A stretch of DNA of 41,669 bases, taken from contig CANCQX010000010.1 of assembly GCA_947380375.1 (NCBI GenBank), positions 1 to 41,669 on the forward strand, written 5' to 3'. Under the pieces are notes generated by a model. It was not told where the DNA came from, made no database searches, and worked only from the letters and a program-made list of their open reading frames with translations. Made by a program: the position numbers and the translations under genes. The stretch is from Flavobacteriales bacterium. Lineage in GTDB: Bacteria; Bacteroidota; Bacteroidia; Flavobacteriales_D; Crocinitomicaceae. This document shows, in pieces, positions 13,066 to 38,660 of this stretch; position 1 is the stretch's first letter; each line of letters starts with the position of its first letter.

Positions 13066-13230
13066 TTAATCATATTATTATCAACTTGACTAAAATTCAA
13101 TTGTTTAAAATACCTCAACAACTCTATTAACAAAGGATTACAGCTTATTTTTATTAGAATAATATATATTGAAATTTAATTTTTAAACAAAAATGAACTA
13201 CCGAACTACTCTAAATAGGATGATACTTTT

Positions 13231-13238
13231 TAACTTTG
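13231..13238 (+). promoter_or_regulatory. purN -7 box adjoining the start codon
   Basis: TAACTTTG matches the consensus exactly and ends four bases before the purN ATG. Transcription would begin at the start codon itself. The -33 element is not clear. Confidence 0.6.
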
Positions 13239-13242
13239 CCGT

Positions 13243-13815
13243 ATGAAAAAAATTAAACTTGCACTATTTGCTTCTGGAAATGGCAGTAATGCTCTAAATA
13301 TTATTGATTATTTTTCATTTAGTTCATTAATTGAAATTGGCTTTGTTTTAACGAATAAAAAAGATGCACCAATTGTTGAATTAGCTCAAAAAAAGAACGT
13401 TGAAACATTGATTTTATCGAATGATGAAGTTTCAAACGGAACTTTACTCACTAAAATATGCTTGGAAAAAGGGATTGACTTTATCATTTTAGCTGGTTAT
13501 CTTCGAAAAATTCCAGCAGAATTATTGACCAATTATTCCAATAAAATCATAAATGTTCATCCTGCACTTCTTCCCAAATTTGGAGGTCAAGGAATGTATG
13601 GGAACAAAGTTCATAAAGCTGTATTTGAATCTGAAGAATTTGAAACGGGTATTACCATTCATTTTGTTAACGAACATTTTGATGAAGGCAAGGTAATCGC
13701 TCAATTTTATTGTGAAGTGACCAAAAACGATACAATAGAAACTATACAAGCAAAAGTTCAGAAATTAGAACATAACTATTTTCCTATTGTTATTGAAAAA
13801 ACGATTCTAAATTAA
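13243..13815 (+). CDS. purN: Phosphoribosylglycinamide formyltransferase
   Basis: The 190-residue enzyme transfers a formyl group from 10-formyl-THF to GAR in purine synthesis. The phosphate-binding loop FASGNGSNA (residues 9-17) and the catalytic residues N104 and H106 (INVHPALLP) and D147 (EHFDEGK) are all present. Length is normal. It is transcribed away from acpP, an arrangement also found in other Flavobacteriia. No Shine-Dalgarno site precedes the ATG, in keeping with a leaderless mRNA. Confidence 0.95.
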   Translation: MKKIKLALFASGNGSNALNIIDYFSFSSLIEIGFVLTNKKDAPIVELAQKKNVETLILSNDEVSNGTLLTKICLEKGIDFIILAGYLRKIPAELLTNYSNKIINVHPALLPKFGGQGMYGNKVHKAVFESEEFETGITIHFVNEHFDEGKVIAQFYCEVTKNDTIETIQAKVQKLEHNYFPIVIEKTILN

Positions 13816-13897
13816 TTGATAATTATCAATTGACACTTGTCACAAACATAGCACTCTAGTCTTTGAACTCGAAGAGCGGTCTATTGTCTAATAAAAT

Positions 13898-15571
13898 CTA
13901 TTTAACTTCAATTCCATTTGAGAAATTTTTCTCGTTGATAATTTTTCCGTTTTCGTTGTAGATAATGAATTTACCATTTTTCACACCTTTTGAGTAATTA
14001 ATTTCTGATGAAATTTTACCATTTCTATCGTATTGTCTCATAGGACCATCCAATTCACCTTTTTTATAAGTAGTAAAAACAGCCGTCATTTTTCCGCCTG
14101 GATAGAAATCAATCCATTCGCCTTCTTTATGACCATTTTTATAGTTTCCTTCTTCTGTCTTTTTAAAATCTTTTTTAGAATAAGAAATGGAATGACCGTT
14201 TTTAATACTTTCTTTAACAGTATGATTTTTCATATAGCCATACTCCATTTTTGATTTTACATCTGCAACTTTGTAGTTAATTAATTCTTTGGGTTGACCA
14301 TTCTCGTAATATTCTACCCACTCGCCTGATTTAAAATTCTGTTTGTAATGTCCTGTTAATTTAGGGTTACCTGTAGGAGAAAATGACTTCCAAGCTCCGT
14401 GCATTTCGCCGTGTTTAAAAGCAACCGAATTCTTTAATTTTCCATCTTCCCAATAATTCAACCATTCGCCCTCTTCTTTTCCTTTTTCATATATACCGTC
14501 CATTAATAGCGTTCCATTTTCATACCAGGTTTGCCACCTTCCTTCTTTTAAGTCATTTAGAAAATCTCCTTTTTTAAAGGTTGACCCATCTTTGTATAAA
14601 TAATGCCAATTCCCTGATTTTAAACCTACAGTATAATGAGCTGTATATGATTTTTCTCCAGTAGGATACCAATAAATCCATTCTCCATCTTGAAGGTCTT
14701 TTACAAAATCACCTTGCATATCGGGAGTTCCAGTATTAGTGAACCATTTCCAAAAACCATCTTTCTTGCCATTTAAATAATTCCCATTAACGTTTAGTTG
14801 ACCTTTATCGTAAAAGTAGTTGTAAGGACCATTTAAAATACCATTTTTGTATGTACTTGTTTTTTCTAAATCTCCAGTGTAGTAGTAATATTTCCATTCT
14901 CCATCTTTTTCACCATCTTTGAATGAACCAGTTAAAAGATTATAGCCATAAATACTACGATCTTCAAAAGGACCATTCGGACGACCATTTTTGTAGTTGT
15001 ACCATTCTTTTATTGTACCAGTCGAATGAAAAGTAGTAAATTCGCCATTACCATCAATAATTGTTTGAGTATGTTTTGCATCAGGTAACCAAAATGCTCT
15101 TATGAAAGTGATGCTATCTATTTCTTCTTCCAATGAACGTTCTCTTCCATCTAAATAATAATTTTTCCAAATTCCTTTTGGGCGATTCATTTCGAACATT
15201 CCTTCTCTCGAAAGTAAACCAGTTTCATTCCATTCTCGGTAAACACTATCTTGATTACCCATTTTAAAATATCCTTCTTGTTTTAATTTCCCGTTTGGAT
15301 AATACAAAACAACTTTTCCATCTAACTTTTCACGGTTGTAATTTCGTTCTTCTTGTAAAACACCATATTTGTCGTAATAAGACCATTTACCATGTTTTTC
15401 TTTACTTTCTCCCCTTCCATCAACAAAATAACATCCAGAAGCTTGAACTTTTGTTTTATTAAAATCCCAATAAGTGACTTCTTTTTTAGAAAGATTTTCA
15501 CTTTTTATACTATTTTGAGCAAATATCGAGATAGGAAAAATTAGTAAGGCAATTTTTAAATAATTCAACAT
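13898..15571 (-). CDS. Exported MORN-variant repeat protein
   Basis: The 557-residue protein has a signal peptide (MLNYLKIALLIFPISIFAQ). It is then made almost entirely of repeats of about 23 residues with the pattern G.W..YY.NG.....G.Y.NG, roughly twenty in number, from about residue 60 to the end. This is the MORN-variant repeat that gives such proteins the misleading label 'YwqK-family antitoxin'; there is no toxin partner here. The repeats form stacked beta-hairpins and probably serve as a binding surface in the periplasm or outer membrane. No catalytic motif and no type IX sorting tail is visible. It lies 48 bases downstream of the LysE-family gene. Confidence 0.82.
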   Translation of the reverse strand: MLNYLKIALLIFPISIFAQNSIKSENLSKKEVTYWDFNKTKVQASGCYFVDGRGESKEKHGKWSYYDKYGVLQEERNYNREKLDGKVVLYYPNGKLKQEGYFKMGNQDSVYREWNETGLLSREGMFEMNRPKGIWKNYYLDGRERSLEEEIDSITFIRAFWLPDAKHTQTIIDGNGEFTTFHSTGTIKEWYNYKNGRPNGPFEDRSIYGYNLLTGSFKDGEKDGEWKYYYYTGDLEKTSTYKNGILNGPYNYFYDKGQLNVNGNYLNGKKDGFWKWFTNTGTPDMQGDFVKDLQDGEWIYWYPTGEKSYTAHYTVGLKSGNWHYLYKDGSTFKKGDFLNDLKEGRWQTWYENGTLLMDGIYEKGKEEGEWLNYWEDGKLKNSVAFKHGEMHGAWKSFSPTGNPKLTGHYKQNFKSGEWVEYYENGQPKELINYKVADVKSKMEYGYMKNHTVKESIKNGHSISYSKKDFKKTEEGNYKNGHKEGEWIDFYPGGKMTAVFTTYKKGELDGPMRQYDRNGKISSEINYSKGVKNGKFIIYNENGKIINEKNFSNGIEVK

Positions 15572-35421: not shown

Positions 35422-36171
35422 CTATTCAGCAGAAATCATTCCTTTGAAATATTCTCTGTTCATTCTTGCGATGTTATCTAAAGAAATTTCTTTTGGACAT
35501 TCAACAGCACAAGCTCCTGTATTTGTACAATTTCCAAATCCTTCTTCGTCCATTGTTTGAACCATGTTTAAAACACGTTGTTTCGCTTCTACTTGACCTT
35601 GTGGTAACAATGCCAATTGAGAAACTTTTGCAGAAACGAATAACATTGCAGAAGCATTTACACAAGAAGCAACACAAGCACCACAACCAATACAAGTTGC
35701 AGCTTCGAACGCTTTATCAGCATCGATTTTAGAAACGGGAATTGCATTTGCATCTACTGTATTTCCTGAAGTGTTTACAGAAACAAAACCTCCTGATGCC
35801 ATTATACGGTCAAAAGCACCACGATTTACTACTAAATCTTTGATTACAGGGAACGCTTTTGCTCTCCAAGGCTCAATGTAGATAGTATCTCCATCGTTGA
35901 ATTTACGCATGTGTAACTGACACGTTGTAACTGCTCTATCTGGTCCGTGCGCTTCACCATTGATAAACAAAGAACACATTCCACAAATACCTTCACGGCA
36001 ATCGTGATCAAACGCTACAGGATCTTCCCCTTTCACGATTAATTCTTCGTTCAAAATATCCATCATTTCTAAGAATGACATATCTCCATCAATATTATCG
36101 ATTGGATAAGTAACCATTTGACCCTTGTCAGACGGACCTTTTTGTCTCCAGATTTTTAATGTTAATTTCAT
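35422..36171 (-). CDS. sdhB: Succinate dehydrogenase/fumarate reductase iron-sulfur subunit
   Basis: The 249-residue subunit carries electrons from the flavoprotein to menaquinone. Cysteine sets are visible for the [2Fe-2S] cluster (CREGICGMC with a later TTC), the [4Fe-4S] cluster ([11 protein letters not shown]) and the [3Fe-4S] cluster ([12 protein letters not shown]). It is the last gene of sdhC-sdhA-sdhB, but a four-helix-bundle cassette separates it from sdhA, and the intergenic distance has grown to almost 490 bases. Confidence 0.96.
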
Positions 36172-36179
36172 TTTATTAA

Positions 36180-36643
36180 AGTTTTTAGTGATTAGTTGTT
36201 AGTTTTTAGTGAGTTCCCACTTTCAACTAAATCAATCACTTGATTATTATTATCTAATTTTTTTATAAAGCTATTTATCATTTTTCCTATTTGTTCTATT
36301 TCGTTTCTTAATATTTCAATCGTTTCGTTGTTAATATAACCAAGTCTAAAACAAATTTCTAAAATTGTCTCAACTTCAAATAAAGAACCTCTTGCTATTC
36401 TCAAAAAATTTGCAAAAGATTTGTTCGAACCTCTTCCCCAACCTTCAGCTATGTTTAAAGGAACTGAAGTGGAAGCTCTTCTCAACTGAGAAGTCAATCC
36501 AAATTGTTCGTCTTTCGGAAAATTTACTGTATGACCATAAATTAGTATAGATAAATCTAATCCTCTTTGCCATATTTGTAAATCTCTAAAACTCTTCATT
36601 ATATTTTCTAATTACCACTACTAACAACTAATCACTAAAAACT
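36180..36643. mobile_element. Four-helix-bundle gene cassette with 24-bp terminal inverted repeats
   Basis: Bases 36180-36203 and 36620-36643 are perfect 24-base inverted repeats (inner core ATTAGTTGTTAGT on the left). They bracket a single four-helix-bundle gene, 8 bases from the sdhB start and 16 from the sdhA stop. Each arm belongs to a 21-base-period repeat: GTTTTTAGTGA recurs at 36181 and 36202 on the left, and ACTAACA at 36620 and 36641 on the right. The layout looks like a small insertion that spared both flanking genes. No transposase is inside, so movement would need help in trans. Confidence 0.7.
36192..36599 (-). CDS. Four-helix-bundle protein (S23/23S rRNA intervening-sequence family)
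   Basis: The 135-residue protein has the family signature: an opening [13 protein letters not shown], then [30 protein letters not shown] (two halves of helices 1-2), and [11 protein letters not shown]. Members are encoded in intervening sequences of 23S rRNA and are scattered through Bacteroidota genomes; Avd, the accessory protein of diversity-generating retroelements, is a relative. They form basic pentameric bundles that may bind nucleic acid. Here the gene lies inside inverted repeats between sdhA and sdhB, and its last codons and stop lie within the left repeat. It is read with the sdh operon. Confidence 0.9.
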
Positions 36644-36659
36644 AACAGCTTAATAAGAA

Positions 36660-38660
36660 TCACTTATAATTTCTCTCTACCAATTTAATCTCTTCGAACA
36701 CTAATTCTTCTTTGTGTAAGATAGCTTCTGAAGGTTTACCTGTGTATTCCCAAGCAGCTACGTATGCGAAATCTTTATCGTTACGTTTTGCTTCTCCATC
36801 TTCAGTTTGAGATTCTTCTCGGAAGTGACCTCCACAAGATTCAGTTCTGTTTAAAGCATCAACTGCCATTAATTCTCCTAATTCTAAGAAATCACAAACT
36901 CTGTTTGCTTTATCTAATTCAGGATTGAATGAATCAATTGTACCAGGGATACGAACATCATTATAGAACTCTTCACGTAGTTTTTGAACTTCGTTGATTG
37001 CCCATTTTAAACCTTCTTCATCACGAGACATTCCAACTTTATCCCAGATAATTTTACCTAAACGTTTGTGAAAATGATCAACTGTTTTAGTTCCTTTAAT
37101 ATTCATCAAACGTTCTATTCCAGCCATTACTTCTTGTTCAGCTTGAACGAATTCTGGCAAATCTGTTGAGATTTTACCCGTACGGATATCGTCTGCTAAG
37201 TAATCAGCAATTGTATATGGTAATACGAAATAACCATCTGCCAAACCTTGCATCAATGCAGAAGCTCCTAAACGATTTGCTCCGTGATCAGAGAAATTCG
37301 CTTCACCTGTAGCATAACATCCTGTAATAGTTGTCATTAAGTTGTAATCAACCCAAACACCACCCATTGTGTAATGTACCGCTGGGTAAATCATCATTGG
37401 TGTTAAGTAAGGATCTTGATCTACAATTTTATAATACATTTGGAATAAGTTACCGTATTTCGCTTTCACTACTTCACGTCCTAATTCCAAAATTGTTTCC
37501 ATTGAAGCTTCTCCATGAGAAGTTCTTGCTTTTTCTCGTCCGTAACGTTCGATTGCAGAAGCGAAATCTAAATATACAGCTTCACCTGTAGCATTTACAC
37601 CATAACCTGCATCACAACGTTCTTTAGCGGCACGAGAAGCAACATCACGAGGTACTAAGTTACCAAATGCAGGGTAACGACGCTCTAAATAATAATCTCT
37701 ATCGTCTTCTTTAATATCCGTTGGTTTCATTTTACCTTCACGAATAGCTTTAGAATCTTCTAAGTTTTTAGGTACCCAAATACGACCATCATTTCTCAAT
37801 GATTCTGACATCAAAGTTAATTTTGATTGGTGATCACCTGAAACTGGAATGCAAGTTGGGTGAATTTGAGTATAACAAGGGTTTGCAAAGTAAGCACCTT
37901 TTTTGTGAACTTTCCAAGCAGCTGTTACGTTAGATCCCATCGCATTAGTTGATAAGAAGAATACGTTTCCGTAACCTCCTGAAGCAATAACTACTGCGTG
38001 AGCTCCAAAACGCTCTAATTTTCCTGTTACCAAGTTACGAGCGATAATTCCTCTTGCTTTTCCATCAACGATAACTAAATCTAGCATTTCGTGACGAGTA
38101 TTCATTTGGATTTTACCTTTTCCAATCTGACGAGACATTGCAGAATAAGCTCCTAACAATAATTGTTGCCCTGTTTGACCTTTTGCATAGAATGTACGAG
38201 ATACTTGAGATCCACCGAAAGAACGGTTATCCAACAAACCTCCGTATTCACGAGCAAAAGGAACACCTTGTGCAACACATTGATCAATGATTGAAGCAGA
38301 AACTTCCGCTAAACGGTAAACATTCGCTTCACGAGCTCGGTAGTCACCACCTTTAATTGTATCATAGAATAAACGGAAAACTGAATCTCCATCTCCTTGG
38401 TAATTTTTTGCAGCATTGATACCTCCTTGCGCAGCTATTGAGTGTGCACGACGTGGAGAATCTTGAAAACAAAACGCTTTTACATTGTATCCTAGCTCAG
38501 CTAAAGCAGCAGAAGCAGAACCACCAGCTAAACCTGTTCCAACAACGATAACATCGATGTTTCTTTTGTTAGCAGGATTTACCAAACGAATGTGATCTTT
38601 ATACGAAGACCATTTAGTACTAAGTGGTCCTGTAGGTATTTTTGAATTGAAATTCGACAT
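36660..38660 (-). CDS. sdhA: Succinate dehydrogenase/fumarate reductase flavoprotein subunit
   Basis: The 666-residue subunit oxidises succinate with covalently bound FAD. The dinucleotide-binding motif [12 protein letters not shown] is near residues 40-51 and the [12 protein letters not shown] segment, with the His that links FAD, near 72-83. Active-site regions HPTCIP and GGVWVDYN and the [20 protein letters not shown] segment are also present. Length and motifs fit the type B enzyme of Bacteroidota. It lies 29 bases after sdhC. Confidence 0.97.

Follow-up and report, generated by a model that had tools for sequence, protein, structure and literature searches.

The gap between sdhA and sdhB in the genome of this Flavobacteriales bacterium holds a 24-bp perfect inverted repeat around one S23/IVP gene, and the cassette is likely to be a minimal mobile element, in which an S23 gene is flanked by convergent and mutually complementary arrays of 7-bp words. 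The known pieces of such an element are the S23 open reading frames (ORFs) found in the intervening sequences (IVSs) of rRNA genes and the heptamer arrays, and its closest known relative is the IVS. A widespread and largely unrecognised element family probably accounts for the 23S rRNA inserts as well as for the heptamer repeats of cyanobacteria and other bacteria. Three puzzles would thereby be joined, namely the role of the ubiquitous S23 or 'four helix bundle' proteins, the origin of the 23S rRNA IVSs and the abundance of 7-bp tandem repeats. Were S23 to prove a mobility protein, this would represent a new class of element, and the heptamer repeats gain both a concrete partner protein and base-resolved insertion events to test. 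The analysis also suggests that S23 genes in cas, sdh, suf and fad operons are passengers and not functional partners, which bears on annotation through guilt by association.

The cassette between sdhA and sdhB

The window, by which is meant the whole stretch of 41,669 nucleotides that was analysed, contains the following features at this junction, where sdhA, the S23 gene and sdhB all lie on one strand.

36620 to 36650, minus strand: 5' arm (in the sense of the gene), a convergent heptamer array, AGCTGTTAGTTTTTAGTGATTAGTTGTTAGT, with a core at 36620-36643 that is perfectly complementary to the 3' arm
36192 to 36599, minus strand: S23/IVP four-helix-bundle gene, 135 aa, matching PF05635 and TIGR02436 and carrying the family-invariant residues E52 and E75
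36180 to 36213, minus strand: 3' arm (in the sense of the gene), an inverted heptamer array, CTCACTAAAAACTAACAACTAATCACTAAAAACT, that shares bases with the stop and final codons of S23
36660 to 38660, minus strand: sdhA, the host operon gene upstream of the element, used in the junction comparison
35422 to 36171, minus strand: sdhB, the host operon gene downstream of the element, whose junctions were compared in relatives

The perfectly paired arms (36180-36203 and 36620-36643) are each 24 nt long, 100% complementary and 416 nt apart, and the arrays to which they belong (36180-36213 and 36620-36650) are slightly longer than this perfect core. The enclosed ORF scores 137.7 bits against PF05635 23S_rRNA_IVP (E=2e-40, cut-off 33.8) and 135.7 bits against TIGR02436 (cut-off 24). 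The preliminary description of a single S23/IVS-family gene set within perfect 24-base inverted repeats between sdhA and sdhB is thus borne out, as is its placing of the last codons and stop of the gene within one repeat, since the stop (36192-36194) falls inside the 3' arm. The 21-base period that it gave for the arms has to be corrected: they are tandem heptamers, TTAGTNN x n, with a true period of 7 bp, of which 21 is simply three times the unit. Triples of TAG heptamers have four matches in the 41.7-kb window, all of them in these two arms, against 0.17 expected from shuffles. In the predicted RNA fold the arms pair over 24 bp and enclose the ORF (z=-4.6, with 0 of 100 shuffles as good). 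There are no RNA genes in the window and no Rfam match, so the element is not inside an rRNA gene; it has in common with the IVSs an S23 ORF inside terminal inverted repeats but departs from them in its location between two protein-coding genes.

The AlphaFold model of the window S23 (pLDDT 95.6) is an all-helical four-helix bundle, for which the best PDB folds are 2gsc (TMq ~0.8, TMt ~0.95), which is XCC0516, the S23 protein of Xanthomonas campestris, then 2rld and then, more weakly, Avd. Two glutamates, E52 and E75, are invariant among 172 S23 proteins, where Q38, S45, N49 and R41 are at least 93% conserved, and the invariance of the pair is confirmed in a 67-row alignment. The equivalent positions are R and L in both Avd proteins that this genome encodes (L006 and L007), a sequence pattern that hints at a catalytic role for the two invariant glutamates, which are absent from Avd. 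S23 genes are under purifying selection, with a dN/dS of 0.07-0.2 for pairs from the suf and fad sites and of 0.14 for a close pair from the sdh site (G000, which is this genome, and G007). No transposase or recombinase domain is found in the window S23 by Pfam, NCBIfam, PHROGs or PADLOC, with Pfam returning PF05635 alone and no Y1_Tnp/HuH domain, and for a role in a defence system PADLOC gives no match. Neither in S23 itself nor as a constant neighbour is there a known transposase, nuclease or reverse transcriptase. The possibility that the window gene is the Avd of a diversity-generating retroelement (DGR) was rejected, given a score of 30.6 bits versus an equivalog cut-off of 80 and sdhA and sdhB as its neighbours.

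Repeat-framed S23 genes and heptamer arrays in other genomes

The same anatomy recurs at other S23 genes. For instance, the seven PF05635 matches of this genome represent two DGR Avd genes and four S23 genes, one of which is split over two contigs and was read from their overlapping ends. By eye, the other three S23 genes are framed by inverted heptamer-like arrays, each with a word of its own: ATTGCAG in the suf operon, GATTCAA/GACTTTAA between the fad genes and ACATTCA at the split gene. Across 40 Flavobacteriales genomes an inverted flank match, defined as a best 5'-flank to 3'-flank inverted score of at least 12, accompanies 69% of 94 S23-family genes, compared with 5.9% for cross-paired flanks. 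The corresponding values are 79% versus 3.8% for 84 S23 genes from many phyla (at least a dozen, with one archaeon, going by the record titles), and 85% versus 5.3% for 33 S23 genes that come mostly from Gammaproteobacteria. Controls within the same loci give 11-14% for reversed, 20-30% for direct and 0-1% for shuffled flanks, set against 71-79% for inverted ones. On plasmids, where the S23 matches are mostly cyanobacterial, 14 of 15 genes have an arm match of at least 14, a figure that has no control and was taken from wider flanks than in the other sets; the words there include CAGAAGT, GGGAACA, AGGTGAC and AGGGTGT.

The arms are periodic, with an autocorrelation of 0.58, 0.58 and 0.51 at lags of 7, 14 and 21 and of about 0.25 at most other lags; 77 arms have a period of 7 and 32 a period of 8 (octamers). 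The 5' arm strand is poor in C (of 124 informative elements, 115 have more G than C), and the phase-aligned consensus is TTAGNNN (G 0.83, A 0.65), from which it follows that the arrays are convergent. The words vary between elements while the complementarity of arm to arm is kept. A strict TTAGT hairpin pattern was discarded as a general signature, being too narrow (2 of 40 genomes). The distance between arm words correlates overall with that between the proteins, a correlation that is gone below 50% protein identity and that, among closer relatives, is also to be expected from common descent.

Both neighbours are co-directional with the S23 gene in 68 cases and both opposed in seven (p=1e-13); S23 elements therefore sit in operons in the sense direction, often directly after stop codons. 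A shared RNA context was sought in 20 S23 loci, largely from the mostly gammaproteobacterial set, where rRNA occurs in none and tRNAs in four. On cyanobacterial plasmids there are S23 elements within CRISPR operons (L188 and L189, cas6-S23-cas4; L198, cmr2-S23-cmr3), and the '23S rRNA IVP' that has been catalogued as CRISPR-associated (PMC10910872) may thus be a passenger. A Gammaproteobacterial genome of 1.5 Mb (G366) gives ten weak matches to PF05635 that are nearly identical to one another and may represent another kind of multi-copy element.

Heptamer arrays also track the presence of S23 between genomes. In a sample of 80 Gammaproteobacteria, 40 with and 40 without S23, a genome was scored as positive when it had at least five occurrences of six AG dinucleotides at 7-bp spacing. 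By this measure 28 of 40 genomes with S23 are positive versus 2 of 40 without (medians 22 and 0), where the Fisher p of 1e-9 is only nominal because the 80 genomes are not phylogenetically independent. The two array-bearing exceptions, G056 and G073, have no S23 match even at E<=1. A looser count of period-7 arrays in Flavobacteriales samples of about 400 kb gives 15, 13 and 8 in three genomes with S23 versus 0 and 2 in two without it. For several but not all resident S23 genes the arm words are enriched in their own genome over the others (for example 11 vs 0-4, 11 vs 1-2 and 7 vs 0-2). Under strict settings no gene-less heptamer hairpins are found in 400 kb of G026, a genome with nine S23 matches. 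At 13121-15421 of locus L245 (G026:C1) several long heptamer arrays are clustered, including three near-identical GATGGTGGATGGTGGATATTGGACG arrays within 2.3 kb.

Occupied and empty sites

At the sdhA/sdhB junction the spacer is about 490 bp in this genome and 7-51 bp, that is empty, in many relatives (7 bp in G022, 10 in G013, 12 in G025 and 22 in G014). A congener, G001, in which the end of sdhA is 99% identical, retains a 175-bp remnant made up of the 3' end of S23 and pieces of the arms. In the protein tree the S23s of the sdh site fall on one side of a branch (13/13 rows, support 90/83), those of the suf site group together (7/7 rows, support 100/99) and those of the fad site are poorly resolved. 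Much of the sdhA/sdhB pattern thus reflects inheritance or replacement at the same site and not free movement, because the sdh-site proteins form one clade. When G000 is compared with G002, protein identity is 88% for the S23 of the suf site and 93% for that of the fad site (dS near 0.55) but only 53% for that of the sdh site (dN 0.47); the sdh cassette has probably been exchanged for another in place. The sdhA/sdhB gap is a favoured junction that is held by one S23 sub-lineage, and where the cassette is kept, deleted or replaced among congeners.

Genus g1 has two sdhA types, whose C-terminal ends are about 96% and 56% identical to that of G000, and each type (L001, L048 and L022 versus L023, L033 and L041) has an S23 sub-lineage of its own, which points to transfer of the entire sdh operon or to paralogy. 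In G037 (L221), a genome with no S23 match, the sdhA/sdhB spacer is a gene-less 123 bp with the inverted repeat ACAAAGTATTATGT / ACATCATACTTTGT, and is possibly a relic.

Cyanobacterial plasmids provide pairs of filled and empty sites that are resolved to the base, with flanks that are 90-98% identical. In Nostoc sp. ATCC 53789, plasmids pNsp_a and pNsp_c have stretches in common that are 91-99% identical, but their S23 elements lie at different gene junctions, each of which is empty in the other plasmid. At a third junction there is an insert of about 290 bp that contains no gene and is built from the CAGGAGT words of the S23 element nearby. At the traM junction there is an S23 element in Nostoc edaphicum (L192), a gene-less heptamer insert in pNsp_c (L329) and neither in C057 (L330). 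Another element is present in Trichormus and Scytonema plasmids at a site that is empty in Tolypothrix PCC 7601 and Aulosira (flanks 97-98% identical); here GTAAT, of which the empty site has a single copy, flanks the element on either side, an apparent 5-bp target duplication. The B/C junction of pNsp_a versus pNsp_c similarly has, by eye, an apparent 5-bp duplication of TTCTA. A clear short duplication is limited to these two junctions, with 10-19 bp or more replaced instead of duplicated at the others, and for this reason no fixed duplication length is claimed. S23 genes that are 78-84% identical in nucleotides, with a common arm word, occur at unrelated loci. The empty sites have no array, such that the gene and both arms arrive together. 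In Nostoc pNPM1 (L333, 1105-1960) an S23 gene is split by another insert with heptamers at its flanks, in what looks like a nested insertion.

The element therefore resembles an IS or transposon in being a discrete unit with terminal inverted repeats and empty sites, but not in its coding capacity, as S23 alone is encoded and no known transposase or recombinase. The earlier proposal of a minimal mobile unit made up of gene and repeat is upheld by these empty sites and by the similar repeats that frame other S23 genes. It had called for a search of close relatives for an empty site, which is answered by the short spacers, the remnant in the congener and the plasmid pairs. It had also pointed to the arm beside other such genes: similar repeats do occur there, both in this genome and throughout bacteria, but the identical 24-mer was not found next to any other S23 gene because each element has its own word. 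The link of repeat to gene, against which wide occurrence of the repeat without S23 would have spoken, is upheld by the way in which heptamer arrays follow S23 from genome to genome.

Known relatives, mechanism and rival explanations

A 23S rRNA IVS with an S23p ORF was reportedly described in Leptospira by Ralph and McClelland in 1993, and rRNA IVSs are excised from the RNA by RNase III without ligation. In Azospirillum lipoferum 4B an S23 gene on plasmid p2 lies inside a 23S rRNA gene (LSU match 2135 bits) between heptamer arms of GACAGAG/GACGGAG; the rrn copy on plasmid p1 is empty, and the p2 element replaces a 19-bp hairpin tip. In the Coxiella IVS, which has been called a selfish element, GACAGAT heptamers are repeated in tandem ahead of the S23 ORF, and mobility of IVSs with an S23 ORF has already been put forward as a hypothesis (PMC4990558). 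Given the heptamer arms of the Azospirillum and Coxiella IVSs, S23-bearing IVSs look like the rRNA-located subset of the element family. The two have in common an S23 ORF between terminal inverted repeats, a sporadic distribution and heptamers in the arms, but the window element and nearly all others studied are in protein-coding operons, and many genomes have gene-less relatives.

Tandem 7-mers that are intergenic and often in convergent inverted pairs are also described as the STRRs of cyanobacteria, as GGGAATC arrays in Xanthomonas and GGGGA(C/T)T arrays in Nostoc (PMC4692102) and as TAACTGA arrays in Beggiatoaceae (PMC4679880). As far as the available parts of these two sources go, the repeats are described without a partner protein and S23 is not mentioned, while S23 genes on Nostoc, Calothrix and Anabaena plasmids are framed by heptamer arrays. 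No paper that ties S23 to heptamer arrays in general, or that shows its mobility, was found in a search of open-access literature, which takes in few subscription papers and no preprints.

In the proposed mechanism the S23 pentamer would recognise the heptamer arms of its own element, probably folded into a hairpin of single-stranded DNA or RNA, and would promote the copying and insertion of the unit and, in trans, of gene-less derivatives, possibly via host enzymes. Once transcribed, the window element would enclose its S23 ORF in a 24-bp stem, in the manner of rRNA IVSs. Both arms change in concert, which suggests that one arm serves as template for the other when the element moves or is repaired.

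It is possible, though rather unlikely, that the element is an RNA-level parasite, spreading as an RNA intermediate like an IVS or a retroelement, in which, after pairing of the arms in the transcript, RNase III releases the S23 RNA, to be copied back into DNA in trans with the help of the Avd-related S23. Such a route would suit the fold that S23 has in common with Avd, the 68:7 co-orientation of element and host transcription, the enclosure of the ORF by the arms in the predicted RNA fold and the cutting of rRNA IVSs by RNase III (PMC4990558). However, sense-strand G.U pairs at arm mismatches are not in excess (290 vs 254, p=0.13), no reverse transcriptase is among the recurrent neighbours of non-DGR S23 genes, and both of the Avd proteins examined differ from S23 at its invariant residues. 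The lack of a sense-strand wobble excess also weighs against a resident regulatory module, in which a vertically inherited S23 at sdhA/sdhB, fad and suf would process or regulate the operon mRNA via the hairpin and the complementarity of the arms would be kept by selection. Grouping of the proteins by site (sdh 13/13 and suf 7/7 rows), purifying selection on S23 and occupation of the same junctions in several families speak for such residence, but with one junction empty, deleted or replaced among relatives, insertion polymorphism at unrelated plasmid junctions and gene-less inserts with the same words, we regard it as improbable.

Slightly harder still to credit is that the heptamer arrays are independent expanding repeats on which S23 genes merely land or hitch-hike: some arrays do lack an adjacent S23 gene, and two array-bearing genomes have no S23 that could be found, but empty sites have no array, gene and both arms come together, and arrays are nearly absent from S23-negative genomes. 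As for REP elements and their RAYT partners (TnpA-REP), to which the preliminary description likened the cassette, the comparison holds as an analogy, through the logic of one small protein, palindromic arms and many dispersed gene-less relatives, but fails as membership. A strict REP/RAYT system, with S23 as a HuH/Y1 transposase that mobilises REP palindromes, has a negligible probability, since Pfam gives PF05635 and no Y1_Tnp and the fold is an all-helical four-helix bundle where a RAYT is a HuH Y1 enzyme; the arms of S23, moreover, are tandem heptamers with element-specific words. Membership of the RAYT family is thus ruled out by domain content and fold.

With the mobile S23 cassette as the preferred reading, we incline, if narrowly, to the wider view that S23 proteins serve to mobilise a separate and very widespread class of minimal transposable elements, with a new type of catalysis or recruitment involving E52/E75, and that these elements are the source of rRNA IVSs and of most prokaryotic intergenic heptamer repeats, including the cyanobacterial STRRs and GGGAATC of Xanthomonas. 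A known relative of S23 is the Avd of DGRs, which is alike in fold (PHROG 3206, E=1.1e-10; structural matches 4dwl/8ube) but belongs to a reverse-transcriptase complex and has R/L for E52/E75 in L006 and L007. These two loci (L006, G000:C84, 1485-2080; L007, G000:C16, 1200-2040) are apparent diversity-generating retroelements in their own right, in which the Avd gene lies beside an AAC-rich, template-repeat-like copy of the variable repeat, with a reverse-transcriptase-like ORF adjoining.
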